A stretch of DNA of 64,000 nucleotides from Loxodes magnus (taxonomy: Eukaryota; Ciliophora; Karyorelictea; Loxodida; Loxodidae). The stretch spans positions 1,302,001-1,366,000 of the forward strand of contig CAMPDV010000006.1 in NCBI GenBank assembly GCA_946699065.1, in the 5' to 3' direction. The notes beneath the pieces are model-generated. The model did not search any database. It was not told the origin of the DNA and saw nothing but the letters and a program-made list of their open reading frames with translations. Below, piece by piece: positions 5,591 through 62,818 of this stretch. The translations under genes and the position numbers were made by a program. Every line of letters begins with the position of its first letter. Within the stretch, counting starts at the first letter, position 1.

Positions 5591-7402
5591 ATGTAAAAGT
5601 GGGAAGAAAAACGTAAATAAAAAGCTCACAATAATAGAGTTAAAACAGCAAAACCTTCAATTCCTCTTCCTAAATAAAATAAAGTAGAGCTCAATTCTGA
5701 TCCTAATCGCTAAACTATTCCACCTTTAGTCAGCATTTTAAAGACTTTTGGACTTTAATAATATACTAAAAAACTTACTGAGCTTGGATTTGCCTAATCT
5801 CCTCACCGCTTAGCATTATTTGATAATGATGAATTAGATGAAATAAAGAAAATTCTTAAGCTGCTTCCTGGGCATGGATAAAGATTTAAGTAATTAGTTG
5901 ATTTAATTAGATAAATTTATAATTCAACTGAAGAAAATAGGAGAAGACGAAGTGCTGATCCTCGTAGAAAGCCAAAGTCTTCTCAAGCTCATAATAGAAA
6001 ATGAAGCTCTAATGAGCATGAAAATGAAGAAGGAGTATAAGAATATGTCTAAAACTACCAAAGCTTTTTAAAAAAATACCAAGGAATTGACATTGCATCT
6101 AACAGCGAACTTTATAAGCTTAGTAATTAATTTGACACTGATATACTTGATATGGTCACTTAACAAACTCCATAAAATTAAACTGAAATTAATTATCTGG
6201 TATAGCAACTTGAATCAGCTCAATAACGAATTAAGGAACTCTAAGAAGAACTTCAGAGGAAAGAATAACCATATTAAAGAGAACACAGCACAAATTAATA
6301 ACAAACGCAAGTTGAAAATTAAATAAGCGAAGATGAAGAAGATTTAAATCAATAGCATAGTCCATTAACTCTTGCAAAACGTATACCAGCTTATGTTTAA
6401 CCTTCATTAGAGGAAAATTTTTTTGAAAATAAAGAGCAACTAAAAGAATTAATTGAATCAGTGTAACTTTTAAAAGGCCAAATTTATCAGCAAACTGCTA
6501 AATAAAACTCAATTATGGAATAAAGTCATTCTTCAGTTGCTCTTTCTTCTCCTTAAATCAATCATTAGACTCCTTAAAGTTTTGATTTTGAAAAAATTTC
6601 AGAAGTTAGTAACACTCAGACCAATAAATTATAGGAAGAAACTAAAGTTTTTAGAGAATCAGAAGACAAACCTGTACTTGATATGAAAAAACCTGAATGC
6701 GGAGTTTCTATAGATTCTTATTAGATGCGATCAACTTTAGTTAATATGGATATTGAAGAAATGAGCCATTGTTTAGCATCTACATTAGAGAAAAAAATAA
6801 AGGATAAGGTATAGGTATAAATACCTATGGTAGTTTAAGAATTCATCAAAATTTTTGAAGAAGAGGTTTCCGAAAAGGCAAAAAAACCGGACAAAATGAC
6901 AATTTATAATTTCTGTAAAAATATCATTATGAGAGCAAAGATGGAGAAGGAATGCTCTGTTATTTGTCCCATTTACGTAGATAGATTAATTAATTAGGGC
7001 GTTGAAATAAACGTAAAAAATTGAAAAAAGATAGTATTTTGCTCTCTTATTTTAGCTAGTAAAGTATGGGATGATGACTCATATGAAAATGTACATTTTG
7101 CAAAAGCTTTTACAGCTTATAGTATTAAAGAAATAAATGCAATTGAAAGAAATTTTCTGGCAATAATTGAATTTAATGTTCATATAAAGTAATCTGACTA
7201 TGCTTAATCATATTTTAATCTCAGAACTTTAGCTGAAAAAAGAAAAAAAAGCTTTCCTTTGAGACCTCTAGATGTGGCTACTGTTTTACAACTATAGAAA
7301 AAAGCAGATAATGCTGAATCAAATTTAAAATAGATTCATGGAGAAGCGTTATTCAAGACAATGTGAAATAAAAACTTTCCTTAATTCATTTTAAATCTTT
7401 GA
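5591..7402 (+). CDS. SAM-like domain plus cyclin Y/PHO80-type cyclin
   Basis: A 603-aa protein in one exon. The N-terminus (about residues 45-120) looks like a SAM-type helical domain, with the spaced motif LLPGHGQRF. The middle is charged and Gln-rich. A cyclin box starts near residue 415 and contains CPIYVDRL, ILASKVWDDDSYENV and IERNFLAIIEFNV, which match the cyclin Y / PHO80 family. Such cyclins partner CDK14/16 or PHO85-type kinases. TGA at 7022-7024 encodes a Trp conserved in this family (motif NWKKIV). I place the stop at TGA 7400-7402; TGA 7364-7366 would end it 12 codons earlier. The 3' end is convergent with the next gene, 148 bp away. The cyclin call is firm; the SAM call is probable. 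Confidence 0.82.
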
Positions 7403-12534: not shown

Positions 12535-13939
12535 TCAAAACCTCCTAGCTGTAGCCAAGCCTACTTTATCATTTTCTCTATCATAAACGGAATAATATTT
12601 CATTAAAAATATATCTCCTAAAACCCAAAGTGGTCCTCTATAAATAATAAATTTTACTGAGGTGGAGGAACATCAAGTGGCATTATAGCTGCTTTGCAAT
12701 CTTGTATAAAGAATTAATTTGAATGCTCCCATGGATTTTCTTCTGTGCCATCGTATTTAACAGTAATAATATATTCTTCTGGCTTTAATGAAAACTTTTT
12801 TCCTGATATAATGAATCTAATTTATTAAAATAGCTTACGTAAGCACTGGCAATTCATGAAAATTCGAACATCTTTCGTCAACTTAAATATATTCTAATAC
12901 TTAGTCTATAATTTCTGGAGGAGCTGTAATTAAACTTGTGCCTGAATCTACAGCTGCATTACAGGGACATACACCTAAACTTTTACCATCATATAAAATA
13001 TCATCAATTTTAATTAGCCAATAGTATTTATCTATTACATCAGTTCAAAATATATCACCTTCAAATAAATCACTATCATAACCTCCAAAAGTTAGTGTTG
13101 AATCTTCGAACTCATTTATTGCAAAATAAAAAGCAAACATATTTTTGCCCAATATATCTTATGACATCATACTATCAAACACTGGCTCAAAACCAAATGC
13201 AGACATTTCAGGAAAAGCGAGTCCTAGTATACCAGAGAACTTTCCATCTAAGAAAACTTCTCCTTTTTCGTCTGTAATTTCTCCAAACTCTTGATCTTTA
13301 ATTTTAATGTCTCCAATAGTAACTGTATCCTTATTTATGATTCCATCTATTGTTCCTGTTCCAAATTCCACTGATAATTAATAACCAATTTCTTCATAGT
13401 CTCTAGATTTTGTATGATCATATGCAGTATGAAGTCCACATGGAAGATCAAAACACAACTTAGAATTTACCCAAAAGTTTGTAGAGCCAGTGTCAAAAAC
13501 AACATCTAAAAATTGAGGAGGATTACCGACTCCTACTTCTCCTACATATTAAGTGTTATCAAAATTTTTTAAATATATTGAGGATTTTTATTGTAAAAGT
13601 ACGTTTGAATTATTCAAAGTTTAGATTTAATGCTTTTTAGCCTGAAACTTATTTGATTACCTTTCAGCTATGAAATTTATGAAGTTTAGTTTATCTTATC
13701 TGCTCTAATTTATTTTCTTTAGCTTAATCGTATGCTAATTTTTCTTTGTCTTTGTTGCCTATTCTTATGACTTAACTTTTTTAAGGAAATGCTATTCAGA
13801 CTCAATACTGTTAAAAGCAGTAAACAAAACGAAGAGTAGAACCACTCTTTACAATTGCATTTTAAGAGCAACCAAGCCAGAGTATAAATAGTAATAACAA
13901 AACGATTATTAAAACGAAAAACGAATAAAACTATTTCAT
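12535..13939 (-). CDS. Pepsin/cathepsin D-type aspartic protease
   Basis: A secreted or lysosomal aspartic endopeptidase (family A1), 447 aa after splicing. Exons (minus) are 13939-13661, 13641-12839, 12816-12658 and 12637-12535; introns are 19, 22 and 20 nt, all GTAA..AG, and each restores the conserved frame. The N-terminus has a hydrophobic signal-like segment, then a basic propeptide-like stretch. Catalytic motifs are FDTGS (Asp about residue 143) and VDSGTS (Asp about 325). Other hallmarks are the flap region [18 protein letters not shown], and the C-terminal [14 protein letters not shown]. The last codons give a natural A1 ending at TGA. The exact start is the least certain part. Confidence 0.93.
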
Positions 13940-17100: not shown

Positions 17101-18359
17101 GTTATAATAAATGACATAATTAAATTTAGAAGTAATAATTTTAATTAATGAAGAAATAAGTTAAATGCTAAGGATTTTAGTTATATTCTTTAATTATATT
17201 TCTTATTTTACTATTTCAACTTAAATTTATGTTTAAAACCTTTCTAAGAAAATCCAAATATATAAAGGTAAATTTTATGAGATTGTTAATTACAAATATC
17301 CAAAAAAATAATAATTAACTAAACTAATTAAAAATGAGAATTAAATATAATAAAAGATAAATAGTTCCTTTAGTATCTACATAGATAAGAAAGGAAGCAA
17401 GACTAAGCAAACTAAATTATTAATATTAAAGCTAAAATTATATAACTTTACTAATTAAAATATAAGCATATTAAAGCTTAATATATTAAATCAAACTTAA
17501 TAAAATAAAATATTTAATGATGATTATGAACTTGAAAATTAATGCAAATAGATTTCAAATTTCTTTTTTTAAATAGTCTTCTAAATTTAATTTAAAGCTA
17601 AAAATACATAAAGCAAAGATAATAGATCGTGAAGGTAATTAGGATCTTGAGATTTAGCTTGGCTTGAAAATAGTAAATGATTAAATAATAATTTAAAGAA
17701 ATTTTTGCTTATAGAAAATAAGTAAAATAACTATAAGAAGGAAATTTCTTACTTTCAATAAAAATATATATGATAATAATATAAGAGCTAAAGTTAACTT
17801 TTACATTTTTTAAGTAAGAAACTCTATTATCTTTTATTTTAAGTAGTATCCTTCTTAATATACTACTTAAGTTCATTAACCAGTGTATTTGTTCTAGAGA
17901 TAAAGCTAAATTAGTCCTACACTAGTTTATAATTTAAAATAATAAAGTCTAGCTATGATATCTAAAATATCCGAAATCTACTAAATTTAGTGACATAATT
18001 TTAGTATAAAATAGCAGATTTGTAATGCTATAAATAGAATTAATTCAAAAAGATGCAAGGCCATATAAATAAACTTTAATAATAATGTGGATTTTTTGGT
18101 AAAGTTTAAATAAATGGAAATCATATAATAATCATCAATGAACTACTATTAATTACTATATATAGTCAAATAATTTAAAACAAATACTAAAAATTTGTTG
18201 ATATTATAAAGGATAAAAATAATAATGAAAGAGTTTTTTGAAAAAAGTAAAAGAAATTCAAACAGTAGCATAAAAGATGGTTTTATTTTATGAGTTTATA
18301 TTAGAATAAAATAGTAATTATTTTATTGATATTTTAAGTAAATTGTAAAAGTTTATGTC
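17101..18359. other. Intergenic, AT-rich
   Basis: Long AT-rich gap between convergent genes. A plus-strand stretch near 17600-17800 is mildly protein-like, but no start, stop or motif supports a gene. Confidence 0.4.
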
Positions 18360-20139
18360 TCATTCTATTTTTTTCTTAAATATCAAAGTCAAATCAAATC
18401 CTTTATATAAGTCAATCTGCTTCTTAACAATAGTAACAATTTGGCCTGGTTTTACAGTAACTTCATAATCATGTCCCTAAAAAGGAGGAACCAAAGCAAG
18501 GTTATCAAAACTTTTATGAATTATTTTGACCCAAATAGATTTTCCTTCAGTATTTTTATTCTCAATTATGTCATATAAAAATCCTTCATAGTTTTAATCT
18601 CTCTCGTTGCTACCACAACGAGCTCCAGTGTAGAATCGCATATCTGGTCCGATTAATGTACTTTGTCCTTCACCAGGTCTATTTGCAAGCTCGATATTAT
18701 AGCATCTATTCAAAAAGACTTGATTAACATCATCAGAAAGTTCATCAAATTCGGATTTAGATTTTGAGTAAACTTAGAATCCAAATTTTTTTCCAGACTC
18801 AATTTCCACGTAACATAAATATGATCCTTATTAAGCTTTAAACTAAATCCATCCATCTCTTTCATAAAAGAATGTTCTTCCTGCTATGAAAACTAGTTCA
18901 TTGCCTTATTCCCTTACCAAGATAAGTCTTATTGTACTATATTCATAAGAAGCAGAATAATGACGTTTGTCTCTTTGGCAAACTGAGATATATGCGTTTG
19001 CTGTTTTCTCAAAATTAACTCTTATTAAATTTTCTCTTCTGGCCCCTCCTACATATCTACATGTAGTCAAATAGTCATCATGCATTTTACAGATTGAAAC
19101 CTCTGAAAATTTCGTGGCAAAATCTTCCAAACACATCCAAAAAGAGCCATCGTCTGCAGCAATCCAATTGCATTCTTTTTTGAGTTCTGGAGTCCATCTT
19201 GTATCATTATCACCCCAAGCTCCTTACCATTCTTTCATTCCCCATGGATTACGTAGATGCACAAGTTTAACTATTTATCCCTAATATGTTACTTCTTTTA
19301 CATCAATTAAAGAATAAGCATGGAGGGCTACTAGTCCTAATTCATCTACTTAATCCTAAGCTGATTATGATCCTAAAGAAGAGCAGCACATAATATATTT
19401 TTTTTTGTCGCCAAACAAGACATTTTCCCATAAAATAGGGTTACTTGTTTCTATTACATCGACAGGTGCTCCTGTTAAATCAGTTAAAGAGTTTTTGGTG
19501 AATCCTCCTTCTAATTTTTAATAGCTACCATAAACTTTAGCCCAGGCTTTTTCCATTAGCACAACCCATTATTCACTTATTCCATGTTCAAGTCTTGGAC
19601 CGGAAAAGGTTATCTTATTGCTGTTTGGATGAACTGGAATAAAATCATCAATAACTATATTTCTCCAGATACCCATATCGCATATTCTTACTTCATAAAC
19701 ACCAACTTTTGAAACATTTTTAGTTACAAACAAGGCTTTAATTCTGTAATCAAATTCAGCAACTGCAGATAAAGCAGATAGAAGCCAGCAATCACCCAAT
19801 CCTCCTTACAAAATATCATTTGGATCGATGCCTTCAAAAACTGCTATCTATTGGCCTTTATAAATTTCGCTTATTCTTTTCCATTCGTAATTTCTCCATT
19901 TATTTGCCTTATTTGGGTGAAGAAGAACCCAATCTTCACAAAGGCATTTCTTATCTGGCATAAATACTGGATCAGAATATAAAACATTGTTTTTAAGACA
20001 CTCTGCTTCATTTTACTCAGCGTTCTCTATATATTAAAAAATCCTTACTTTCAAGTTAAGCTCCCTTTATAGAATTTTTAAACAGTTTTGCAGGAACTAC
20101 TTTTTCCTTTCCTTGCTAGAGTTGCTTCCAAACAGACAT
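18360..20139 (-). CDS. Calpain-family cysteine protease
   Basis: A cytosolic papain-fold protease (family C2), 585 aa after splicing. Exons (minus) are 20139-20049 and 20026-18360, with a 22-nt intron at 20027-20048. The catalytic triad is visible: Cys about residue 110 in QGGLGDCWLLSALS, His about 266 in GLVALHAYS, and Asn about 290 in LRNPWGMKEWQGAWGD. The region after about residue 330 resembles the calpain beta-sandwich (C2L) domains, and a second such region may follow. No EF-hand domain is present, as in many protist calpains. It ends at TGA 18362-18360. The short N-terminal exon is basic and amphipathic. Confidence 0.93.
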
Positions 20140-22310: not shown

Positions 22311-24134
22311 TCACTCAAATTTGTTGTGTCTTATTTTCGCACCTTCAATTTCTTCTTCATTTACCATGCATCTCAAGAATTTATCGAATTTATTCACTAC
22401 AAAAATTTCTGCCAATGCTGAGCATTCAAAAACAACAGATCCATTTTCTAAGGATTAAATATTTTCTCTTAAGTTATTAAGTATTTCGTTTTGAGATAAG
22501 TCTTCTATACTCAGGCTTTTTTTGAGAAGTATAGTTCAGAACAAAAACTCTTCAGCTTCTTTATTATTTAATCTAATGATTCTTGAAGATTTTTACATAA
22601 AGGGCAGGATTTGCATTATACCGTCTTAACATATTCTATATCCTTTAATCTTTTCCTTTGCGAATAATTTAACTCCCATATTCAAAAGATTAATTTTTAT
22701 TTTAGGATCTTCTTAAATCTATTTTCAAATTTGGTATAAATCTTCTTTTATTATTACTATATTTTTCAACTTTTGAGTACAACAAGTAAAGAGTCTGTGG
22801 ATAGGGAAATTTTCAAGCTAGTAAAAATCAATTATTCATTAAACTTCAGGACTATCTTGTTTTAGCTGCATATATGGAGATTGATCTTAAAAATTTTTCG
22901 AATAAGCACCAGTTAAAGGTATTTATGGCATTAAACTTGTTTTTCTTAGTAAAGAAATATAAAATCCTCCTGTATTTTAGTCCATTGGTAAGATTCTGAT
23001 AGTTCTCTTAAGTATGTCAGATTAATCGTTTTGTTTAGGAGGAAAAATACCTGCAGAAATGGAATTATTTTTTTCCCAAAATTTTTCATTTGCATTAATA
23101 TATCCTTATTTCTTATCAAAAATTTTCCATGTAGTTATTCCTTCTCTATATTTTAGTTATGGCATTAAGTCTTTACAAATTTATCTCAGATCTACTACCT
23201 CGAAATACTGGCCATATTCTTTTCACATCTATCATATAATTGCTTCATTTTCAACAGGATTTAAAGAGCAAGTACTATAGATTACCAATCCACCAATTTT
23301 ACAGCAAAATAAGGCTCTTTTTAATAAGCTCATTTAAATTTTATGAATTGAGTATGCTGGTTTAAAGCTTCAGTTTGACCATTTTATGGGAAGCTTTCTA
23401 ATAGCACCATCTCCAGTGCAAGGAACATCACAAAGAACTCTATCAAAGAATTCTTAAGGAAACGTAAGATCTTAACCTTCATGTTGAATTGTCATAGTTC
23501 CAGAGGTGTCGAGTCTATGTAATTAGTGAATAAGCATAAATGCTCTTTTATAGTCCGCATCGTTTGCTATTATTGATAAATTTGATTTTGACTCAATCAT
23601 TTAAGCTGTTTTGCTTCCAGGAGCAGCACATACATCTAATATTCTTTAGTTATCTTATATGTCTAAGAAAATAATAGGCAGCATTGATACAATTTCCTAT
23701 CTTGTTATTATTCCAGTTTCATTTGCTTACTTTATTCATTCATGTAATTCTTTATAATTTTCTGACTTTTTTAACGTAACTCTATCTAAACTTTCAAGCT
23801 AGTAAACTAATGGACATTATTCAACTGGTTTGATAACATCACTCCATTAATTAATTTTAGCTTATATATTTTAAAGATGACTTATATTTCTATTTATTCT
23901 AAAAGTAGTTGGAAGTTTCTTCTTCATATACTAAAACATAGATTCCAATTCTTATTAAGTTAATAAATCCTTGAACTGTACGCTATAATAACTTTCCAAG
24001 AATTCATTCTTGTATTATCAATCACTTCATTTCTATTTCTTTTAAACATAATTTTATCCTTCTTCGTTCTTAAATTATTCTTTATTTTTATTTTTCTTAT
24101 TGTTTTTATCATTTCTACGACGCTTTTTTCCCAT
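22311..24134 (-). CDS. NSUN2/Trm4-type RNA cytosine-5 methyltransferase
   Basis: A SAM-dependent enzyme making 5-methylcytosine in tRNA, 607 aa in one exon. The start MGKKRRRN at 24134 gives the basic nuclear-type N-terminus usual for this family; the ATG at 23927 would remove it. The SAM motif LDVCAAPGSKTAQMIE, motif IV VLCDVPCTGDGAIRK (Cys about 239) and motif VI YSTCSLNPVENEA (Cys about 289) are clear; the two catalytic Cys are 50 residues apart, the spacing usual in NSUN2. The C-terminal half matches the NSUN2 layout, with GGFYISLL. TGA reads as Trp many times, for example in NEAIIWQMWKEY. It ends at TGA 22313-22311. Confidence 0.94.
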
Positions 24135-25998
24135 TTTTTATATATTAATCTAATAATTTTCAATTTATCTTTTGCTAAATCCGTTAGTTACTTTTAAATA
24201 GGCCTAAAGGATAATATTAGTTATAATACCTTACTAACAAAGATTTATTATCTGATAAACAACTTATTTGTCTAACTAGCCTATAAGCAGCCTCTTATTT
24301 CTAAGCAAACTTATAAAATTAATAAATATAATAAATATATTTAAGAACCTAACTACTACAATTTGATATTTATGCTTATATAACTAAATACATGCTATGC
24401 TATAACTTATTCTTCTATTAATATCTATAAATTAAGAGATGTATATCAGTTAGTATCATATTACTGTTAATTCTAATAAATACTTTGCTAGTCTTAATAT
24501 AGCTATTTAAAATAAGCATCATAATCATTATTTCATCTTTTCCCTTTTTTAGCACATCAAATTATTTTTTACCCTCTTTTAGGAGCCAAAACTACTATAT
24601 TTATCTTTTTTTAAAGAGAAAATTGAATAATGAAGCAGATAACTATTATAGCTGCTATTCAATTAATAGATTTACGCAAGGATAATAATTAAATTTAAGC
24701 TGCAAAGATTTCCTTCTTTATGACTCAAATTTCCCAGTATAATATAATATTTATTAACAGATAGCTATTTGCAATTATATATTCTAAAATGCTAAAACAA
24801 TTAGATTTTAACCCTTTTTAATAATACTATTATATTAGCCCAGCTAATAATCTCTAATGTAATATAGAAGCAAATATTTAGCAAGTAAATCTAAGTTTAT
24901 TTATCTTTTCTATTCTAATAACTTCTTTAAATTAAATATTCTAATTACAGTAAAAAGACAGTACAGTTACCTATAAACTTCTTTTAATTACATTTATCTC
25001 ATTAAAACAATAAAGAAGCTTAGAACAAATAAGAGTAGACTTCTACATTGCTTTGCAATGTAAAATAATTATACAAAGCTAAATATCTAATTAATAAGCA
25101 TTTTGACTGCTATAATTAACCTGTAATTTATTTACTTTCTTATGCACTTTTTAATTCCTTTCTTCTCTCTTTAATGGTAATTATTTTTTAAAAATCGACT
25201 TTCTTTATTTTGCCCTTTATATTTTAAAGATCTTTAGTTACTAAAGTAAGTTTAGAAAATGACTTAAAGTTAAATGAGATAAATAAAGTAAAGCTTTAGC
25301 ATAGCAAAGGAAGCAAATATTCTATGAAGTTGACTTTTTCTAGTAAAAATAATGAACTTAAATTAATTAAATAGCATTAAAAGGGATTTCCTAATTATAT
25401 GTAGACAATTAATATTTAGCATTTCATAACCTTTAGATTTAATAAAATATGTAATTACTACAATGATTTAATCAGATTATTATAAAACTGAACCATAAGA
25501 AGAATTAAGTTAGAAACAGGTAAATTAATAGCCAGTTTAAAAAAGAATGAGCAATTATTTTAAATCAAAAGTGGTGATAAGTTACAGATAAATAGCTTTT
25601 ATCTATTAGCTGAAGGGGTTTATATAGTTAATTGAAATTAGTAAAATTTGAGAATATAAAGAAAAATACATGAGATTTGCATTGTTTATATAATTCGAAA
25701 AATTAAACAAACAAACAATCTTGTTGAAGTAGAAGAAGTTATAACAGCCAAAAATAAAATAAATATTATATTTCATTATTAGGAGTTCTAATTAGGCAGA
25801 AAGTTCTTGACTAGAATCGTATATGTAATTGAGAAACTCTCAAGAGGTATTATTTATAGCTTTTGGCTGATAAAATTATATCAAATAATTTTAAAATGAT
25901 AATGTTTTAATAAGTTATGAGTGTTCTTTGAAATTAAAATATTCTAAATTATTATATTAAAAGGAAATCTTGATAAAAAATGTCCAATTATACGAGTT
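24135..25998. other. Intergenic, AT-rich, with one palindrome
   Basis: Long AT-rich gap. The only structure seen is an 8-bp perfect hairpin at 25044-25062 (TACATTGC, loop TTT, GCAATGTA). A plus-strand frame from ATG 25463 is open, but nothing supports it as a gene. Confidence 0.45.
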
Positions 25999-26520
25999 TC
26001 AATTTTCATTTTTGCCTATATAATAAAAAGCATTCTTCTCACTATCTTCTACATTATATCTTTTCTCTAGTTGTTGAGTTAGTATATCCAGGTCATGTTC
26101 GTTAGTATTTGGATTTTATCTTTACTTGATATAAGTATGTTATAAGATAAACTGTGGCTGCTTTAATTTGTTTAACTATTTCAACTTGAAGTTTAACATT
26201 TTGAATGTATAGCCAGGAAATTCCCATTTCATCTTGTTCAAGAATTTTCTTCCTAAATGCGAATTCAATCGAGCTTAGTCACAAAATTTAAGTGCCTAAA
26301 GTCTTGTCCATTAATTCATTAAAGTAGGTTGTAGCACTTTAATTCATCTTCGTTTAATTTATTTGAAGTGTTTTATCTGCTTCCCCTTGTTCACCACATT
26401 GTTGAGAATCTAAGCAAATTAAGTTCAGATAACAATTGGACTGTTTTCCAGATATTCTATTATATATTTGTCTTCCTCATAAGTTCAGTTGTGATTATAA
26501 TTACTGCGCATTTCCTTCAT
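25999..26520 (-). CDS. Myb/SANT-like DNA-binding protein
   Basis: A frame of 173 aa from ATG 26520 to TGA 26001-25999. The N-terminal third resembles a Myb repeat: NWTYEEDKYIIEYLE, then IWTQFAQILN, then FKQIKRRWIKVLQP. The three tryptophans at Myb-like spacing are all encoded by TGA (N-W-T, I-W-T, R-W-I), which is hard to explain unless TGA is Trp. The spacing between the second and third Trp is longer than usual. A possible upstream exon begins at ATG 26944, joined by a 19-nt intron (GTAAG..AAG), extending the N-terminus; that model is uncertain because several frames look plausible there. It could act in transcription or chromatin. Confidence 0.55.
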
Positions 26521-29467
26521 TTTATTTACAGTGAAGTTTAATTATAATAAATAAGTTATTTAAACATTTATAATTAGCAGATTAAAGTTTATTTATAATT
26601 GAATTCTTTAAATATTAATGGAGTTATACTAAAGCTTCATTTAAATATTATAATACATGTAAAAGTAATAATCCAGCACTTCCTTCTATTAAAATTTTTT
26701 AGCACGCTTGTTTAGTAATCTTTGCTGTCCAATCCACTATTTTTTAATTGTTAGATAAGAGGTTGCTAATACCTTTTAAAACTTTCTTATCTTTATATCA
26801 GTTAATCAGTACACTACAATGCTAATTAATTATTTAAAAAACCTTTTAAAGTTCTTATGAAGCGCATCTTACTTTCAATAGTGATGCCAATTTTAAGTTC
26901 TTAAATGAAGTCTTAGACCAGTAAGATGTTTCTTTGAAATACATGAATTAAAGATTTCTTAATTAATTTGCCTTTTATTTATAATATTGCATTATAATTT
27001 ATAAGAAAATTCTTTATTACAATGTATATTAGCCCTCTATATCATATAATCAATTATCTAAGGATTATTATCACTATCTCATATGTGCAGATTTTTAAAT
27101 CGATTTTTTGATTCACCAACTTTAAGATTCTATCCATTCTAGCAGCTTAAAGTAAAAAAATAAAAAGCCTGAGATTTTATAAATATAAAGTTGTTTATTC
27201 TATAAAGAGAATAAGCAAATATACTTAAAAAGCACTTGATTTATACTAAATTATTATTTGAGATTAATAAAATCTCTACTTATATATCTGTTAATGAGAA
27301 ATTCCCTTTAGAAAATTCCATATAAGATAGAAAGTTAAAATATACACTATTCAAACCTATAAAGGTAATTATATTGATGTTTATTTAGCCTTTTCTTTTT
27401 AATATTTTGAAGCTACCAAAGTGTATATTTAATCTTTAGTACATTATTTTTATTTACTTAGTAAATAAAAATATATTAAAACATATTTTTAAAGCTTGAG
27501 AATCTATATCTGCATTATTGACTTTTCTAGTGAAGATAGTTGTTTCACAACGAAAAACTTTTGTAAGTGTACTGTTATAAGTTATACCTTTATGAAAATT
27601 TAAAGAATAAAGAAATCAAGAAGTAGCCATCAAAGTTAATAAAATGAATTAAATAAATTGCATGGAAGCATGTGCTACTTTAAACTTCTATAGATCGATA
27701 ATAAAGAACATGTTATTATAATTTCCTATTCTATCAATCATATAATGCATGCAAAAGCTTTGCCTTTTATAGTATCATCGTTTCTACTGTGTAATATTTC
27801 CTCAATACATGGTCTAAGCAAAATCTAATTATCCTTTTATTATACATTTTAATATATTACAAATTAATTTCTTTGCTTGTTAAGTTTAAATTCTAAGATT
27901 ATTTTACCTTAAATTAACTATAAATTAAGCAAATTTTGCAAGTTGATTAGAAATATCATTTTGTTGAATATTTAAAATATGGATTGAGTGTAAAAGAGCT
28001 AATCATATTTAATTTTGCATTCTTTAATATGAAATAAGATCTTACAGAATTACTAAGAAGCTTTAATATCAAATAAAATATCCAAATTTACGCAAAGCAG
28101 CAGAACTAATGACAAAAGTAGCACTTCTTAGTTAATCAAGCAAATGCTAATATCAAACATTTTTCATTCTTTTATCATAAAAGTTCTATTGCGAATATTA
28201 AAAAACTAAAGATAATCTCACAAATTAAAAGTAAGAAATTTAAATATATGGTAAAAAATTTGATATTTCTATGCTTTTCAGCTTATCTTCCTTCTCTATA
28301 ATCCCAATTTATTTGCAAATTTATGAAATAATATTATCAGAATGGAATTTACATTGCATTAAATAAAGTTAAAAAATAAAAAGGGCAATGAAGTATATTA
28401 TTTGTGTAGTGGCCTTAATTTATGCTAAAAATAAATATTTGAAAACACTTTTTTTAGTAATTATTTTATCTAGATAAATAAAAAAATAACTTATAAGCAT
28501 AAATAATTTATAAATGCTTCTATTACTTTAATGCTTTAGATTCTTAGTTACTAGCATAACTTTAACTAAAAGAATATTTTTTCTTTTTTTGTAGACAAAC
28601 TTTCTACTTATTTATTTATTTATCTTCTTTTTCTATTCCATTTAGTAAAGTTTTTATATTCTCTTTTTATTTTAAAGGAAAAATAATTAAAAAATCGAAA
28701 TAAAATAAATATATTTCCTATTTATCTCAATAAAGTAAATTAAGAATTAAATAAAATTTTAATTTTATTTATAGCGAAAATTTGCCAATTATGAGTTATC
28801 TCAATGCAAGTTCAGTTATAAATGACGATTATTTAATTATAATTTCATCCATTTATTTGAAATCCTTATATTTAAATGAATAGGTTATAGAACAGTGGTA
28901 GTTATCTTTTTAATTTAAATAGCTAACTTATTTTTATCTTAAGCTTATAATTTTTAATTTACCTAGTTGCTATTTTATAAATGATTCTGTTAAAAGCGAT
29001 AAAACTAAATAATAAAAATGGCATAAAATTTAAATTTTGATTACTAATAAAGTTATCTAGCTAAAATTTAGCCTAATATAATTATAACTTTAAAAAAGGA
29101 GCCACATAGTTTTAAAGTATTAACTTATGAACATTTAATGAATGAAGTATTTAAAATAACTACTACTGGCTTAATTAATAAAATGCTATGCTTTATATCC
29201 AATTTATTTCAATTTAACTCTTTATTTAGTTTTAGTTTTTATCTTTTGAAACATCTTGATTCATAACTTTATTTTGACATCCACTTACCTTGCAAATGTA
29301 AATGGAAAATAAGAAATAAAAAAGAGCACAGGCAGTTTCTAAATTACTATAGATGAATTAGACTCTTACTTAATGTTAATAATTTAAATATTCTTCTCAG
29401 TCTGTAAAATTTTTAGAGTCAAAAAACTTAAAGCACATATTTGAAATAGAAAGATTACTATTTGGCA
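26521..29467. other. Long AT-rich region, no confident gene
   Basis: Nearly 3 kb without a recognisable motif. Minus frames near 26477-26944 and 27079-27810 are open with TGA as Trp, but several overlapping frames look equally protein-like, so I do not call genes beyond the possible 5' exon of the Myb-like protein. Confidence 0.4.
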
Positions 29468-30534: not shown

Positions 30535-31065
30535 ATGGTGTCTTGTCGAGATCCTTAATCACAGATACCTATGCCTGTACAATCTAGCTAAGTAACACTA
30601 TTAAACACTAGCATTGATATGAAAAACTCCGAAGTTCTAAACTCCATTTTACCATTGACAAACATTTTAGAAATGATAAGAGACGATTCTTTCTGTGTTA
30701 TCTCAGATGAAGATGATCCCTAGCTACTAATAAATATCTAATTTACTCAGTAAGTAAGAATAAAGCACATTATTATAACAGCACCTTAAACTGATTAAGC
30801 TCCTAAATTACTCAAACTATATGTTAATTAATTTGGAATGGGATTTGAAGATACTGAAAAGTTGACTTGCACTTAAGAAATATCAAATTTAGAAACAAAT
30901 GGAAACAAGGCTGAACTTAAATATGTTAAATTTTAAACTGTAAACTTTCTTACTTTATTCTTCGAAAAGAACAAAGGAAACGACCAAACAAGGATCAATT
31001 CAATTGAAATTTGGGGAACCATCGTGCAAGATTTTGATGTGAATAAAATAAAGAAATCAGGGTGA
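30535..31065 (+). CDS. PITH-domain protein (PITHD1/TXNL1 C-terminal type)
   Basis: A 176-aa protein made almost wholly of a PITH domain, the proteasome-interacting jelly-roll domain of TXNL1 and PITHD1. Family features are CVISDEDDPQLLINIQFTQ, the core QVRIKHIIITAP, KLLKLYVNQFGMGFED, ELKYVKFQTVNFLTLFFE and the end INSIEIWGTIVQDFDVN. The stop TGA 31063-31065 falls where the family normally ends. No thioredoxin domain precedes it. Expected role: binding to the 26S proteasome or redox-linked quality control, inferred from family. Confidence 0.9.
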
Positions 31066-31646
31066 GGAAGGTGAGACTGAACCTTTAAAAGAACGGAACA
31101 AGTGACATTACTTCTTAAAATAAAGGAGTAGTTGAGTTCTGTTCACTAAACCTTTATTCATTTTTTCATTAAAGCTAGACTCATTCTTTCAATATACCTT
31201 TATAAAAAGCGTAATGCATTACAATAAAATAAATACCTATTAAAATTTAAGAAGACTATGCTTGTATAAGCTATATTTCACCAATTAAAAGTTAAATGAT
31301 GTTACTCCCAAATATATCAAAGCAAGCTAAATATTTAAGTCTCTATACGTTTTCATTAAATTTACAGTCTCTATTTGAAACATTAATTACTATAATCTTA
31401 AGCTTTTCTCTTGTTAAAGTTACTAAATTTCATAATATTAAATTAAAATTTAGAAAAGGAATAAAGTTTAACTAAATAGAATTAAAGCAAGGACACGGAA
31501 ATATAATGTTACTTGTAATGATTAGCTATTAAATTTTAATTTCTCTAGTATTAAATAAATAAAGCAAATTAGAAAGTAAAGATAGACTATTAGAAGATTC
31601 TAGAACGGAAATATTTTTAAAGCTAATTGAAATTAATAAATTAAAA
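31066..31646. other. Intergenic, AT-rich
   Basis: AT-rich gap between same-strand genes. The downstream frame is open back to an ATG at 31295, adding about 117 hydrophobic, low-complexity residues that I do not believe belong to the protein. Confidence 0.4.
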
Positions 31647-34746: not shown

Positions 34747-36512
34747 ATGGCTCTTCAATTAGAAGATTCTGGATTTACGCATGTTATTGCTATTGATTTT
34801 GGAACAGGCGCTTCAGGCTATGCTATTGCCCCAAAATAGTTAGAGGCAGGTCGTATGAGGATTGAAGTATTTAATCCGAACGATGAATCTGATGATTAAA
34901 AAACAGTGACAGCGATTTTGTTTGATAATGATGGAAATTTCAAAGCGTTTGGTAGCTCAGCTTTAACTTAATATGCAGAAATTTTGGATGACGAAGAATC
35001 AGCATTACTTTTTACTGGATATAAAATGTTTTTGTATCATATGCAATCTATGGCTGTCAGCTAAGATGGTAGAGAGTTATCTTTGATGACCGTCATTTCT
35101 CAAAGTCTTAAGTTTATAGCTGAAAAAGCAATGGAAAAATTAATAAATTAGGTTGGAAAGGTTGTAAAGACAAAAATTAGATGGGTGTTGACAGTTCCTG
35201 CTTTATGGCAAGAAGAACATAAATAATTTATGAGAAGAGCTGCAGTTGAAGCTGGAATAATAGATTAACTGAATTCTCCAAATCTTCTTCTTTGCTTAGA
35301 ACCAGAAGGGGCGTCTATTTCAGTTCGAGAAGACGCTGAAGAAACTGTCAAAAGCTAATTATTTAAAAACTCAGTAATTATGGTTCTTGACTGCGGAGGT
35401 GGAACTGTTGATATAACTGTACATAAACTGCTTTGCGATCCAACTGAGAAATTTCTATGCGAAGAAATAGTACCATCATCAGGAGGATGTGAATGAGGAA
35501 GCAAATTCGTAGATAAATATTTTGAAGAATTTTTAGAAGAATTTTTTGGCTTTGAGCTATTTAAAGTTTACCAGAAAAATGCAATGGCAAGATTGGATAT
35601 TTTAAAATATTTTGAAATGCTTAAAAGAAAATTCAATCCAGGTGTCGATGAGCGTTCTAGGTTACAGCTTTCTTATTTAAGTGAAGATTTATCTGCTAAT
35701 AAATTACAAGATCTGGTTAAATCTTACAATGCTAAATATTCTTCAGAATATCATCTAAAACTTAGAGGGACTTCTTCAGTTGATATTACACCTGCCTTAA
35801 TGAAAAAATTTTTTCTTCCACTATTTGACAATATTACTTCTAAAGTTGATGAAATGATTTAGCAAGTAAATTAAAAAAATGAAGAAGTCTAATTTATTTT
35901 TATGGTTGGAGGATTTAGTGAGTCTCCGTTTTTAAAAAGCGAAATAAAGAAATTTTTAAATTAAAAAAATATTCAAATACTTGTTCCAAGAAGACCTTAA
36001 GTAGCTGTAGTGAGAGGAGCTTGCATGTTTGGACTAAATCCAAGGTCTATTACTAGTAGAATTACAAAAAAAACTTATGGGATTAATACTCTAACAACAT
36101 TCGATCCTAATAATCATCCAGAAGAAAAGAAAGTAATTATTTATTTTAGGTAGTTATTGAAGGTGAAGATTTTTGTGAAGATGTGTTTGATGCCTTTGTT
36201 AAATCAGGAGAATCAGTAGGTGTAGATGAAGTTCATTGTAAAACATACTGCCCTGTAAGATCGAGATAAACAGTAATGAAAATAATTTTTTATTGCTCAG
36301 AAAAAAGTCATGTAGATTTTGTAGATGAAGAAGGAGTTAGTCAATTAGGAGAACTTAGTGTTGATATAGGTAGACCATTTTAAGGAATTGAAGATAAAAC
36401 TGTAAAAGTAACATTATAATTTGGAAGCACTCATATTTATGCGAGTGCATCAAATAAAGATGGAAGTGAAATAAGAAATTGTGAATTCAAATTTGAGAAT
36501 TCAGGATTTTGA
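34747..36512 (+). CDS. HSPA12-type Hsp70-like protein
   Basis: A 582-aa member of the divergent Hsp70/actin ATPase family represented by HSPA12A/B. Exons are 34747-36132 and 36150-36512 with a 17-nt intron (GTAAT..TTTTAG). The nucleotide-binding signatures are visible: phosphate 1 (AIDFGTGASGYA, near residue 17), phosphate 2 (VMVLDCGGGTVDIT), FMVGGFSESP in the adenosine region, and LLLCLEPEGASI, typical of HSPA12. TGA 35494-35496 encodes Trp in SGGCEWGSKFVD, a conserved position. As in HSPA12 there is no canonical C-terminal substrate-binding lid. Expected to act in the cytosol; its client is unknown. Confidence 0.93.
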
Positions 36513-51662: not shown

Positions 51663-52460
51663 TCAAGAAAGCTTGAAAGCTTTCTGATTCTTCTTTTTTA
51701 TATTTAACCTGCTTTAAGTTAGGTTTTTACTGGTTTTTCATCCAGCATTTAGTATGATGCATAGAATGAGACGAGAATATATCAGTGTTCATTATTCCAA
51801 TATAATATTAATATTATTCTTAATAATTTTTATATTTTTCCTTCTTTAATTTTCAGAATATCTTACTATTCTTAACAAAATAAAAGATTGAATCTCGATG
51901 AATGTATTTTTTCAAAAAGTTTTTATATTTAAAAATTCTTTTGCTTTTTTTAATTTCCTCAGTTTCTCTGATTAATTTTATTGCTATTTTTCAGATCCAT
52001 CGATATCCATTTTATCTATAATTTCCTATCATTCTCTTATATTAGAATCTGATTTTTGCGAATACTCTGTTACTTTAGTAACTGAGATTAAATCTTTTCT
52101 ATTTCTAATTTCGATTTTTCTAGCATTCTTTTTATTATACCATTAAGTTTAAAGATATCTTTCTTAATTCATAATTTTTTTTAGAATATTTAACAGATCT
52201 TCTTTAACTTTAATTTTCTTCCTATAAAGGAAAAATTTTCTTTAATTTTTTATACAATAGTGTTAATTTCCTACGTTAATCTGTTTTTTAGCTCAATAAT
52301 CATTTTTATTTATTTATTATCAATTTTTTAATATTGCTATAACTTTAATATTTTGGTTTTATACAAATTTTATATCAAATTATTTTTAATGTAAGTTCTC
52401 TATAATTCTTACACATTTTACTGGAAAGCCTTCTCTATTTTTAAAGGATATAAAAATCAT
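51663..52460 (-). CDS. Basic protein of unknown function
   Basis: A 265-aa frame from ATG 52460 to TGA 51665-51663; an earlier TGA (51791-51789) would give 223 aa. It is Lys/Asn/Gln-rich with many charged helices, such as KVKEDLLNILKKIMNQERYL and NIREWQEIIDKMDIDGSE. No family is recognised. Just upstream another frame also looks protein-like (RLDRVFDYLFDTKIKLGFYV), so the true 5' exon may lie between 52460 and 52560. A perfect 8-bp hairpin sits at 51666-51685 at its 3' end. Confidence 0.4.
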
Positions 52461-52798
52461 TTTTTAACTTTTACTTTTTCCATAAATTTCTACTTTGTTA
52501 CATAAAAACCTAGTTTAATTTTTGTATCAAATAAATAATCGAAGACACGATCCAGTCTAGTTTATAATAAGATATGCAAATTGATAATGTTTTTATTTTA
52601 AAACCTTTTGATTTATAATAATTCTTTTAAATTTGTATATATGCTTATATAACTTTAATAAAGATAAAAATTGTAAAAATATAGTATATTTTAGTTTTAA
52701 AACTAGAAAAGAAGAGTATTTTTTTATATTAGCTAAATAAGATAATAAAGAGTTAATTTTCTTTACTCAATAATAATTTAAAATTTAAGTTAATCTAA
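52461..52798. other. Gap between same-strand genes
   Basis: AT-rich. The RING-H2 frame stays free of TGA across this gap until 52459-52457, but the sequence is not protein-like except near 52465-52560, which may belong to the downstream gene. Confidence 0.35.
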
Positions 52799-53556
52799 TT
52801 ATCTATTGAATTAAGACCCATTTTAATTGCTTGATTCTCTTATACTACTTTAAAGAGATTCTTCTCTTTGATCTTTCCTACATATAGGACATAAAGGGGA
52901 GATTTATAATCATTTATCTGCACATTCTTAATGAAAGATGTGTTTACATCTGAGTTCTCTAATTAAATCATTTTATACAATTTGTCAAGTGCAAATCGCA
53001 CAAATTTCTTCTTAATTGCTGCTTTAAGAAGTTGAAGAAACTGATTTTTTTCTTAGCTTTAACTATTACATTTCATCTTCTGTCATTCCTTACAATCTAA
53101 ATAAAGAACTTACGTATATTAACCTAAAAGTCGATTTTGTAAATTATTTTCAATGAGAGATTATCAAAAAGATCATTCCTATTAAACGGGTATCAATGCA
53201 AAAAGCAAAATTACTGAAGTAACTAGCTCAAAAGCAATCATAAAAATAATAAGGTTGCCAATACTTTCCCTTCATTGTGAATATAAATCATTTTTTTCCA
53301 GAACGAAAAAAAAAATTCATCCAGTTAATAAATAGCTCAAATATTTAGAAATAAGGTGTAATTTTAGCTTGTCAGGATTAAAAGGAGGCATTCAAATATC
53401 TACAGCAAACTTAAAATGTAATGATAAAATCAAATAGCAAAATCATGCCTATCAATAAATATAAAAATTCGCTAATCGTATAATAGTCTCTATTGCCAAA
53501 ACAACATCTATCATTCCTTAAACTGAAATAAAAATTTCTAATTTTCAATCTACCAT
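52799..53556 (-). CDS. Multi-TM RING-H2 protein (ubiquitin ligase)
   Basis: A membrane-anchored RING E3, about 246 aa. Exons (minus) are 53556-53114 and 53096-52799, with a 17-nt intron at 53097-53113. About four hydrophobic segments fill residues 1-140, for example WQAWFCYLILSLHFKF, YLSYLLTGWIFFFVL and IIFMIAFELVTSVILLFALI. A Ser/Gln linker follows, then a RING-H2 from about residue 180: CAIC, LRCKHIFHQECADKWL, PLCPIC, with all eight ligands. At least seven TGA codons read as Trp. The 3' end is uncertain: recognisable protein ends near TAA 52801-52799, while the first in-frame TGA is 52459-52457. It is divergent, by 365 bp, from GDT1. Confidence 0.8.
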
Positions 53557-53921: not shown

Positions 53922-54768
53922 ATGGAACTTGATGGTTAAATTTAATAAATCGAAGAATAAGCAGTGTAATATACTACAGTAACAGCAGATATTTCTACTT
54001 TTTTGCCAAAAAAAGAAGGATTTTAAGGAGAATATTGGGATTGGGAGGATTGAATGAAAGAAGGAACTATGGGTGCTGGCTTTATGGCTTCGTTTTTATT
54101 AAATGTAGCTTCAGAACTTGGTGATAAGGTAATTTTTTTAAATCCAGACTTGGTTTATTGCTGCTATTTTAGCAATGAAATATTCAAGAACTCTAATCTA
54201 TACAGGAGCAATGATAGCTCTTGCTTTTATGACATTTCTATCTACTTCTATGGGTTACGCTGCACCTTACCTATTACCAAAAGAAGTTACAAACCTTATT
54301 GCTGTCGTTTTATTCATGATATTCGGGTTAAAACTACTCTATGAAGCTTGAACTAATAAAGTAAGAATTAAATTGTAGGATGAAGGACCTAACGAAGAAA
54401 TGATAGAAGCGGAAAAAGAAATAGCAAAAAAGGATAGTGGAATTAGGTGCTAAGAAGAACAAAAAGACAAAGATCTTTCTGAATCTAAAGTTATTAAAAG
54501 TAAAAGGAAAATTTTGTTCTAGGCGTTTACTCTTACTTTTTTCGCAGAATGGGGAGATCGCTCCTAAATCACTACTATTTCAATTGCAACAGTAAATTAA
54601 CCTATTGGGGTATTTTTAGGTGGAACTCTAGGACATGCTTTGTGTACTGGATTGGCAGTCATTGGAGGAAAAATGCTTGGAGAGAAAATATAAGAAAAAA
54701 CAATGAACTTGATTGGAGGAATTCTATTTTTGTTCTTTGCAGCATATACTTTCTTGATGCCAAATTGA
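53922..54768 (+). CDS. GDT1/TMEM165-family cation transporter (UPF0016)
   Basis: A Golgi-type Ca2+/Mn2+:H+ exchanger, 275 aa after splicing. Exons are 53922-54128 and 54148-54768, with a 19-nt intron at 54129-54147 that falls inside the first signature. The two family signatures E-x-G-D-[KR]-[ST] are complete: SELGDKT (Glu about 65) and AEWGDRS (Glu about 203), each opening a three-TM half: IAAILAMKY, LIAVVLFMIFGLKLL, then ITTISIAT and GGTLGHALCTGLAVIGG. A charged cytosolic linker separates the halves. There is no obvious signal peptide, only an acidic N-terminus with Trp encoded by TGA. It ends at TGA. Confidence 0.94.
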
Positions 54769-56440: not shown

Positions 56441-59041
56441 TCAATTGACTGATAAATCTATTTTCTCAATTTTTTCCTTATATTATGGAAATGCAATTTT
56501 GAAAACTTAGAGATATTCCTAAACAAAGTGAACATCAAATGATTATTTCAGTTGATCGTCTAATTCTTCATAATTATCTTTATTACCTTCTGGTAAACAT
56601 AGAATGCTTACACCTTCTCTTTTTGCAGCAACTAATTTTTCCTTTAATCCTCCAATTCTCAATACCTTACCCGTAAGGCTTAGTTCTCCCGTCATTGCAA
56701 AATTTTAAATTGTAGGTTGTTTTAAAGCAAACGATAGCAGAGCAGTAGTTATTGTAATTCCAGCTGATGGTCCATCTTTCGGTATTGCTCCTTCAGGTAC
56801 ATGCAAATGAATCATACTTTTTTCTAATTCATCTGTTCCAAGTAAATTAGCTATTTTTCTTGCGTATGTATAAGCAATTTAGATACTTTCTTCCATTACT
56901 TATTTTATATTTCCTGTTATTTTTATAGAAGGATTTTCTGATTATTTTATTTTTTGAACTTCAATATATAAAACCGAACCTCCCATTTCTGTGTAAGCTA
57001 GTCCCATTACAACTCCTTTTGGAGTTTATTCATACATTTTCTCTCGTGGGAAATGAGAATGTCCCAAAAATTTCAAAAGATTAGAAGGTTAAACAACATT
57101 TACTTCTTCTCCAGATACTTATTTCTTTGCTAAAATTTCCCAAATTCTATTGATATATTTTTGCAAACTTCTAACTCCAGCTTCTCTACAATATTCTCTT
57201 ATCATTACTTCTTTAGTTTCTTATGAAACTAGCTATCCTTTGTCATGCATTCCTGACTTTATCTTTGCTTCAGGTTCTAGATATTTATTTAAAATATGTA
57301 TTTTTTCTAGTTCAGTATATCCTGGAATTCTTATGATATCCATCCTATCATATAAAGGTTTGCTAATTTCATCAGCCCAATTAGCAGTACATATAAAAAG
57401 AATTTTAGATAAATCAACTGAAGTATCCAAGTAATTATCATTAAATGCTTTATTTTATTCAGGATCTAAAATTTCTAATAATGCATTTTCGGGAGAACCT
57501 TAATTAATTCTTCTACCCACTTTATCAATTTCATCAATTAAAATAACAGGATTTTCTGTTTATGTAAGTTTCAATGCATGTACTATCTTTCCTGGTAAAG
57601 CACCAATATAAGTTCTTCTATGACCTTTTAATTCAGCTACATCATCTAATCCTCCTAAAGAAATTCTGTAAAATTCTCGATTCAAAGCTTTGGCAATAGA
57701 TCTACCAATACTAGTTTTTCCTACACCTGGTGGACCTACAAAACAAAGAATTTTTCCGTGTACATTTTCTCTTAATTTCGTTACAGCAATGAATTCTAAA
57801 ATTCTTTCTTTGATATCTTTCATTCCATAATGATCTTCATCAAGAATTTTTTAAGCTTATTGTAAATCTAAGTTTTCCTTGCTTTAAACTCCTCAAGGTA
57901 AAGCTGTTAGCCAGTCTAGATATGCCCTAATTACTTAAAATTCACTAGAATTTTTATCTGATGAAGATAATCGATCCATCTCTTCGTTGTAAATTTTTGT
58001 TACATATTCTGGAACTATTTTACCTTCTAAATTTTTGTTATATTTTTGCTTCAGGGTTTCTTTTTCATCTTTATCCATTCCTAATCTTGTTTAAACTGTT
58101 TTTAAAATTTCCTTTAATACAATCTCTTCACTATGCTTTTGTAATTTTGCTTATGCATCTTGTTACAAATTCCTCATTCCTTTTCTCATTTCAATATGTT
58201 CATCAAGTAATTCGCAAAGTTTCTTAATTCTTTTAGAAATACTTATTTCTTCGAAAACGGTCTAAATTTTATGACTATCAATCATATAACTCAAGGAAAC
58301 TGAAGCAAAATCTAGAAAATCTGTGTCATGTCTCATATCGTACTACATAGAAAATGCATCCATGCCTTATCTTTCGTACATTGTAAGCAATTACTTCAAT
58401 TCTTCCAATTTTTGCACTAAAATTTCCAAAAATTGCTTATCTTCTTGCTTCTAAGCTTCATCTTATGCAGAGATATCTTTTAAATGTTCTATTTTGTATA
58501 AAGGGAAGAAAATGTTTTGCTCCTTTTCTTGAACTTAATCTAAAAGTTTAATTTTATGCAAAGGCCTTAGTAAGATGGTTCTTTCAAGTCTATTAAAAAT
58601 GGTTTTGCAATAAGAACCTATATTAAACACATCTTCAATAGATTTCAAGGAAGAAATTCCTGCAATATGCTTTCTTTTATCTTCTATCTCTGAAGATTCA
58701 TCTTTTGGTTTTAAAAGAAAAGCTCCGACAGCTTCTGTAGAGGGATCTCTCATTAAAAATTGGAAGTGCTCCTCTGCCAATCTAAATTTAATCAAATGTT
58801 TTGGAAATAGTGGGTGTCGTTATATAGGTAAAATTCTAAGTTAATTTTACTTTTTATCTTCCTTTTTAGATCCACTTTCAAATTTAGATTCATCAAAAAA
58901 TTCTTCAATTAAGGAATCAGTTTCTTCAACTTCTTCAAACTCACCTTCTGGTTTATTTCTATTTCCATCTCCGAAAAAACTTATCATTCTTTACTAGTTT
59001 CGATTGAAAAAAAAGTTTTTTTTAAAGAAGACCTTAAGCAT
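56441..59041 (-). CDS. LON1: Mitochondrial Lon protease
   Basis: An ATP-dependent serine protease that clears damaged proteins and maintains mtDNA, 866 aa, intron-free. The start at 59041 supplies [18 protein letters not shown], a basic, Phe-rich mitochondrial presequence; ATG 58987 would lose it. The N-terminal substrate domain begins at [14 protein letters not shown]. The AAA+ part has Walker A GPPGVGKT (Lys about 442) and [10 protein letters not shown]. The protease part has KDGPSAG (Ser about 759) and GGLKEK (Lys about 802), 43 residues apart as usual. TGA 57895-57893 encodes the invariant Trp of LPWG. It ends at TGA 56443-56441. Confidence 0.97.
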
Positions 59042-61440: not shown

Positions 61441-61862
61441 ATGGTAGATAGTTTAATTAAATACATATTTTTAACTATCTTAATTGTAAAGAATAATTAA
61501 TTCAGTCTATAGTAATTATTGAAATTATTAAATAGAGTAAGGCAGATAAGAGTGAACTTTATAGAATCAAAATAGATGAATTAAATAACTTAAATAATAA
61601 TAAAAGAGATAATTAGATTATGCTTAATATTTAAATGGCTAATCTGTTTATCTTATAAATAGCATACATAAGAAAATAGAGTATTATTATGATAATGATA
61701 TTATTAGGCGTTTTAATTGTTTATATTTATATAATAGATTTTCTTGGAGAGATAAATTTAAAAATATAATAAGATAAGAAAAATACTGAGATAAGAAAAA
61801 AGTCAGAGATTAATAAGTTAAAATTTAAAATTGTTTTATTCGTTAAAATATGGATTATCTGA
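61441..61862 (+). CDS. Small two-TM protein
   Basis: A 133-aa protein. Exons are 61441-61485 and 61506-61862, joined across a 20-nt intron (61486-61505, GTAAA..TTCAG) that restores a coherent frame. Hydrophobic segment one spans the intron (IFLTILISIVIIEII); segment two is IIMIMILLGVLIVYIYIIDF; between them is a charged Asn-rich helix. It ends at TGA 61860-61862, which overlaps the next ATG. The frame is open further 5' without an ATG, so the start may be upstream. Confidence 0.4.
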
Positions 61863-62818
61863 AAGTGGCTTAGGGTAATATATATAACGTAAATTCGACT
61901 ACTAATAGTTGTGAGGTGATAAAATTTAAAAGTTACAATGAATTTCCTTAAAAGTTTTAAATAAATGCCTCAAGAACATTCGAAGACCTCAATGCCAAAA
62001 CTACTAAAAAAGAAATTTAAAATTCGAAAGATGCAGATAATTGATTTCTTCCTCCTTTATTCCAAGGTTAAAATCACGTTTGCCTGACTCATTCTTGACT
62101 TCCATAAGTTGTTTAGAAATAAAGCAATTAGGAAATTAACTTGAAATAGAATAAAATTTTATAATCTAAACAAACGAACTCAATAGCAGTCAATTAAAGA
62201 AATATAAATTAGATTGCAAAAGAAAGTACGGCAAGCTCTTCTTAAAACTCCAAAAAATGCTCTTATAATTCAAGTCCGAAGCGTCAAATAAGCCCTTTCT
62301 ATAATAATGATTACAAGATAATAGAAAACTTTAATTTAGGCTAAATGTATTAAATTATCAGATAGAAGAAAGACTTAAATGAAATAAAAGCACTGTATCC
62401 TGACTTAAGGTCTAAGGATTTTCCTAAAAGAAGAGCTCTGCAAAGTTCTCTTGTTAAATAAAAACATGGAACTAAGGCTTATGAAAATATCTAAAATTAA
62501 AACTAATTACTATTATAGCCAAGTATTAATATTTCTAAATTTTAGCCTGAAGAAAATTAAACAGCTTAAAGAAAGGAATCTGAAAAAAGGAAAAAATATA
62601 AATATAATAAAAAAATCTAAATTAAAGTAAACTAAGAATAAAGAAACATTCACGCTATAGTGGAGCCTCAAACAACAAGAAACTATTAAGATAAAGATTT
62701 CGATTTAAAATGTTGGACTCCTTATTCATCTAGCGATGACTCGTTCTCTAATTAACTCCAAATTAATTGTATGCTTAATTTATTAATTAAATACCTTTAA
62801 TTGTTATTTTATTATTGA
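61850..62818 (+). CDS. Ser/Gln/Lys-rich protein of unknown function
   Basis: A 322-aa frame from ATG 61850 to TGA 62816-62818. The N-terminus (NIYNVNSTTNSCEVIKFKSY) and a middle block (RSKDFPKRRALQSSLV) look ordered; the rest is basic and rich in Ser, Gln and Asn. The last 20 residues are hydrophobic and may be artefactual if the true end is earlier. The first 13 bases overlap the preceding frame, unusual in a nuclear genome, so this start or the neighbour's end is probably wrong. Confidence 0.5.

Follow-up and report, generated by a model that had tools for sequence, protein, structure and literature searches.

TGA as both tryptophan codon and stop, with TAA and TAG as glutamine codons, in a 64-kb window of Loxodes magnus DNA

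NCBI genetic code 27, as set out for Parduczia and Loxodes in PMC4967479 and PMC11441545, reads TAA and TAG as glutamine and TGA as both tryptophan and stop, in genes with AT-rich DNA after the stop, introns of about 17-20 nucleotides (nt) and a scarcity of TAA before the stop. The stretch of DNA analysed here, hereafter the window, comprises 64 kb from Loxodes magnus (contig CAMPDV010000006.1) and shares all these features. Considering the results below, we conclude that it is very probably L. magnus nuclear DNA read with code 27, with TGA as tryptophan inside genes and as stop at their ends. We found no clear difference from the described system; TGA accounts for 0.46% of the codons in 16 unvalidated gene models of the window (32 TGA, 45 TGG), above the 0.120% given for Parduczia (PMC4967479). 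The genetic code, the organism, the eRF1 motifs of L. striatus and the short-stem tRNA were already known from print. A code whose sole stop codon doubles as sense departs from the usual rule and is relevant to the way ribosomes discriminate stop from sense; such a code is established for karyorelicts. What we add is a natural experiment within one genome, in which three copies of the Lon protease gene swap TGA and TGG yet all end at TGA, and a view of the decoding parts, namely an amplified short-stem tRNA-Trp and an eRF1 of the Loxodes type.

Other described systems share some of these traits. In Condylostoma magnum (code 28) the three stop codons are also sense codons and context decides, but TAA and TAG terminate there, whereas the window contains no such homology-tested end, and heterotrich introns measure 15-16 nt. 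Blastocrithidia nonstop likewise has a stop codon with two meanings; there, UAR (UAA and UAG) encodes glutamate, UAA is the stop and eRF1 carries Ser70Gly, whereas the genome of the window has Ala70. Blepharisma resembles the window in reading UGA as tryptophan, with a reported tRNA-Trp of 4-bp stem, and differs in using UAR as stops; its Lon is also the nearest named homologue of the Lon encoded in the window (57% identity).

The window is AT-rich (GC 20-26% in 4-kb steps), and under the standard code its 64 kb contain no reading frame of at least 200 codons between stops, compared with 121 such frames once TAA and TAG are read as glutamine. The initial annotation had described TAA and TAG at dozens of glutamine positions in every gene; their abundance holds, the claim of dozens in every gene does not, with 10 TAA and 3 TAG in the segment 34747-36126 of the HSPA12-like gene. 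We read the meanings of the three codons from the homologues of Lon, an NSUN2-type RNA methyltransferase and the HSPA12-like protein. For each gene, 120 homologues were aligned after replacing TAA, TAG and TGA by X, and the residues filling the columns of each codon were scored in nats; the query that had retrieved the Lon homologues carried tryptophan at TGA, those for NSUN2 and HSPA12-like carried X. Over the three families, tryptophan scored +15.7 nats in the TGA columns (n=11; next, tyrosine at -2.5), and glutamine scored +54.4 in the TAA columns (n=70; next, lysine at -36.6) and +9.2 in the TAG columns (n=15; next, serine at -7.4). The scoring recovered the codon's own residue for 56 of the 59 sense codons with data, failing for ATC, CGT and TCC. 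The mean tryptophan frequency was 0.293 in TGA columns, 0.542 in TGG columns and 0.0028 in 1,936 columns of other codons, and when sets of 11 columns were drawn at random 20,000 times, none attained the mean of the TGA columns. Furthermore, the alignments run on at both flanks of the internal TGAs in all three proteins. The comparison with homologues that the initial annotation had proposed for Lon and NSUN2, extended here to the HSPA12-like protein, supports tryptophan for TGA and glutamine for both TAA and TAG.

The Lon paralogues tell the same story within one genome. We found three genome matches to the Lon C-terminal family and compared the copies over 532 aligned columns. Where the window copy has TGA in its LPWG motif, both other copies have TGG. 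A second tryptophan lies six codons before this one; there one copy uses TGA, and the window copy and the third use TGG; two further tryptophan columns are TGG in all three. Counted over ordered pairs of copies, TAA faces TAA 26 times, Glu 18, CAA 11, TAG 9, Pro 6 and CAG 2, plus others. The interchange of TGA and TGG among these paralogues settles that TGA encodes tryptophan.

TGA is also where these genes stop. In the window, we compared gene ends with homologue C-termini for Lon, NSUN2 and HSPA12, all three of which hold internal TGA as well; the homologues end near the terminal TGA in each case (Table 1), so that for these three genes the earlier claim of ends at TGA where the families predict holds. 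The terminal codon is TGA in all three Lon copies, and elsewhere in the genome TGA directly follows the YGFGG of histone H4 in nine of nine matches. Among the homology-tested ends (NSUN2, HSPA12, the three Lon copies and the nine H4 matches), none was TAA or TAG.

For the wider context of the stops, we built 25 gene models of the window ab initio, starting from equal stop frequencies, imposing GT-AG introns and allowing introns from 14 nt upwards. Four doubtful or tiny models (16989-17114, 26039-26944, 51912-52172 and 52910-53086) and the five ending at TAA or TAG were dropped before codon counts, leaving 16, all TGA-ended. In these 16, TAA is scarce in the last 20 codons (7 observed versus 17.7 expected, Poisson 0.0035), TAG is not (10 versus 5.7), and the DNA after the stop is AT-rich, GC over 60 nt not exceeding 0.20 in 14 models. 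In L. magnus, UGA and UAA are depleted before the stop and UAG is undepleted, according to PMC11441545, and PMC4967479 and PMC11441545 describe nearness to the mRNA 3' end as tipping UGA toward termination. Context-dependent termination is published for karyorelicts, and our data, given the low TAA count ahead of the stops, are consistent with it. In such a mechanism, a short-stem tRNA-Trp(CCA) would decode internal UGA as tryptophan and an eRF1 with altered recognition motifs would terminate at UGA, both the decoder role and the UGA-only type being taken from the literature, and termination would be favoured near the mRNA 3' end, where the deciding role of proximity again comes from the literature and is inferred for the window.

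The genome encodes two eRF1 copies (L044 and L045) with RAQNIKS, FLCENTF and Ala70, letter for letter the Loxodes striatus row printed in PMC4695839. With residues counted on the alignment to human eRF1 (1dt9), the changes are E55A, T58R, S60Q, S70A and Y125F, and GTS and NIKS are retained. The review PMC4695839 holds that the altered Loxodes motifs must act jointly for UGA-only termination.

As for the tRNA, PMC13092985 and PMC12005148 report that Condylostoma and Blastocrithidia read it with a tRNA-Trp(CCA) whose anticodon stem is reduced from 5 to 4 pairs, and both cite a short-stem tRNA-Trp already reported for Loxodes; nuclear tRNA-Trp(UCA) went undetected in Condylostoma (PMC4967479). 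In the genome of the window, a tRNA-Trp pattern permitting either anticodon gave 126 matches (an earlier, stricter pattern gave 0). Among the matches listed (about 100 of the 126), all carry CCA and none is a tRNA-Trp(UCA), the pattern covering one stem type. A tRNA-Trp(CCA) pattern with a broken top anticodon-stem pair (C43 unable to pair with base 27) gave 124 matches, which we infer to lie within the 126 because the strand counts are 52 + 72 and 54 + 72, respectively. Stems were read in loci L046-L075, L078 and L079. Among the roughly 100 matches listed, the mismatch is A27.C43 in the C67 array and U27.C43 on contig C148; full-stem tRNA-Trp was found as two single copies on contig C110. It is conceivable, though we regard it as rather unlikely, that the Loxodes tRNA-Trp pool is dominated by short-stem tRNA-Trp(CCA) arrays, the UGA reader having been amplified instead of a cognate anticodon being acquired. 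If this were true and expression followed, an amplified UGA reader would explain why TGA is about as common as TGG, and termination at gene ends would have to compete with a tRNA of unusual abundance.

The tandem tRNA-Trp arrays extend over C67:482318-491183 and from C148:155459 onward, and their repeat units measure about 187 and 241 bp, respectively, every listed copy having the broken top pair; the copy numbers describe tandem arrays in the assembly and are not a measure of expression. tRNA-Lys is multicopy as well: tRNA-Lys(TTT) was present in nine of nine tRNA loci scanned (from L004-L030), and tRNA-Lys matches of equal score, not scanned individually, recur at 527-base steps on C103 and at 1752-base steps on C158.

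The lineage of the window was approached through introns and a tree. Eight of the nine predicted introns measure 17-22 nt and one 44 nt, with none of 15-16 nt; PMC11441545 gives a mode of 17 nt for L. magnus and 15-16 nt for heterotrichs. In a 40-row HSPA12 tree, a clade of Blepharisma and Stentor (support 100/99), the only rows named as heterotrichs, excludes the window, and the window also falls outside the clade with Paramecium and Ichthyophthirius; the tree excludes the window from these groups and does not place it. The eRF1 motifs and the intron lengths fit a karyorelict. Relatives looked for among viral contigs were not found.

Some of our own results weigh against this reading. Tryptophan is the majority residue in just three of the 11 scored TGA columns and is absent from four, and without the three majority columns its lead is small (1.51 versus 0.37 for phenylalanine). 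The initial annotation had placed TGA at invariant tryptophans; the tryptophan reading stands, the invariance does not, since even the LPWG column of Lon holds 78% Trp against 22% Tyr, and the six nearest relatives printed all carry Tyr. At gene ends, five of the 25 ab initio models stop, on composition, at TAA (3) or TAG (2), the other 20 at TGA. When each codon was tried as sole stop, the preference for TGA was modest (1264, where TAA reached 1251 and the sense control TTA 1250; the 20 sense controls had fewer training rounds than the stops), and since TTA nearly equals TAA, this likelihood is too weak to decide. With stop frequencies fixed as equal, the ends became 13 TGA, 6 TAA and 5 TAG of 24, so that, together with the small sole-stop differences, the ab initio evidence on stops is weak. 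Finally, the models show no depletion of TGA over their last 20 codons (2 observed versus 1.5 expected); the TGAs counted are few, and both late ones belong to models in which a second TGA stands 3 or 7 codons before the end.

These points have to be set against three other explanations. Between codes 27 and 28, which the initial annotation had named side by side, the evidence picks 27, through the eRF1 motifs, the introns, the HSPA12 tree and homology-tested ends that are all TGA. Code 28, under which TAA and TAG would also be stops at gene ends as in Condylostoma, is improbable in our view, although it would accommodate the five composition-based TAA and TAG ends, and a minor share of UAA stops in karyorelicts is reportedly admitted by Seah et al. 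(2022) in their abstract. With TGA as the sole stop, a nearby TGA becomes the modelled end at four of those five loci. Moreover, the window lies outside the Blepharisma and Stentor clade, and its genome has eRF1 motifs of the Loxodes type. We prefer code 27 because no homology-tested end is TAA or TAG and because eight of nine predicted introns are of 17-22 nt, leaving the 15-16 nt of heterotrichs unmatched.

Still less credible is code 6, with TAA and TAG as glutamine and TGA as stop only, so that the in-frame TGAs would be assembly errors, pseudogenes or unrecognised introns. The shortage of TGA columns with a tryptophan majority would suit it; the alignment flanking the internal TGAs in Lon, NSUN2 and HSPA12, the TGA/TGG interchange in paralogues and the tryptophan enrichment contradict it. 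We found no point in support of the least probable proposal, namely that internal TGA, after the example of selenoproteins or Euplotes, encodes selenocysteine or cysteine: cysteine is outside the top four residues for the TGA columns, the Myb, RING and cyclin scores drop or vanish with cysteine, and eRF1 reads FLCENTF compared with YICDNKF in Euplotes (PMC4695839). Code 27 remains our preferred reading of the window.

Table 1. Coordinates of genes and TGA codons in the window.
Feature	Position	Strand	Remark
Lon protease gene, mitochondrial-type, one internal TGA	56441..58987	-	
Internal TGA = Trp in LPWG of Lon	57893..57895	-	Mitochondrial Lon 8oka has Trp at the aligned position
Terminal TGA (stop) of Lon	56441..56443	-	12 nearest homologues end 6-14 residues earlier
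HSPA12/HSP70-like gene	34747..36512	+	Exons 34747-36132, 36150-36512; predicted intron 36133-36149 (17 nt)
Internal TGA = Trp (GGCEWG), HSPA12-like	35494..35496	+	Column 100% Trp, 120 homologues weighted; Trp in DnaK 5obw
Terminal TGA (stop), HSPA12-like	36510..36512	+	73/120 homologues and each of nearest 12 end 2 residues earlier
NSUN2-type RNA methyltransferase gene, nine internal TGA	22311..24134	-	
Internal TGA = Trp (KWSNW), NSUN2	23370..23372	-	Column 96% Trp; Trp in NSUN2 9z2p
Terminal TGA (stop), NSUN2	22311..22313	-	C-termini of the 12 nearest homologues lie at -3 to +1 residues
Cyclin-Y-like gene; internal TGA 7022-7024 = Trp (NWKKIV)	5591..7366	+	Cyclin-Y PDB 9r2i has NWKRIV
Myb-type repeat, three Trp by TGA 26485-26487, 26425-26427, 26344-26346	26277..26520	-	
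RING-H2 finger; TGA 52910-52912 at RING Trp	52700..53086	-	
GDT1 cation antiporter gene, two internal TGA, terminal TGA	53922..54768	+	Predicted 19-nt intron 54129-54147
Aspartyl protease gene, one internal TGA	12535..13860	-	Predicted introns 12638-12657 (20 nt), 12817-12838 (22 nt)

In-frame TGA was found at every site the initial annotation had named in Lon, the HSPA12-like gene, the cyclin and the Myb-type repeat (Table 1). The Pfam Cyclin score is 49.4 bits with TGA as tryptophan and 45.7-46.8 with Q, C or R. The three tryptophans of the Myb-type repeat were borne out as in-frame TGAs on the minus strand: with tryptophan, Pfam reports Myb families at 19.7 bits (E 9.7e-4), under the curated cut-off of 22.9, and with K or C, the sole alternatives tried, it reports no Myb family. 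The repeat aligns weakly to PDB Myb chains (E 0.0078-0.45), and a six-frame Pfam scan of 24134-29133 at E 0.05 missed it before a focused scan recovered it. The RING-H2 finger carries TGA at a position that is usually tryptophan. Its zf-RING_2 score is highest with W (48.5 bits) and falls to 43.2 with K and 40.1 with C, both TGA being switched at once; the picture from weaker RING models is mixed, since zf-RING_11 and zf-RING_5 score higher with K than with W. For GDT1, the Pfam score is unaltered when the residue at the TGA of exon 2 is swapped. Model 26039-26944 is in a frame other than that of the Myb repeat, and the model of the RING finger halted at its own tryptophan TGA; composition alone can misplace frames and ends.

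Models 14741-16342, 2508-4285 and 61850-62755 (+) end best at TAA by composition, and they may represent minority UAA stops or mis-modelled ends. In-frame TGAs are clustered at the end of the PITH gene (31063-31074, +; SG-TGA-GR-TGA-D-TGA) and of one eRF1 copy (L044; FL-TGA-VG-TGA-V-TGA), where they perhaps act as reserve stops. The use of TGA is very uneven among genes: the calpain-like model 18360-20139 (-) lacks internal TGA altogether despite 17 TGG, whereas NSUN2 has 9 TGA and 4 TGG. The best match to PF03463 in the genome (L043) was rejected as eRF1, as it reads Pelota-like; by its Pelota features we take it to be such a protein. Both this gene and the reading frame upstream of it, presumably aminotransferase-like, contain in-frame TGA.
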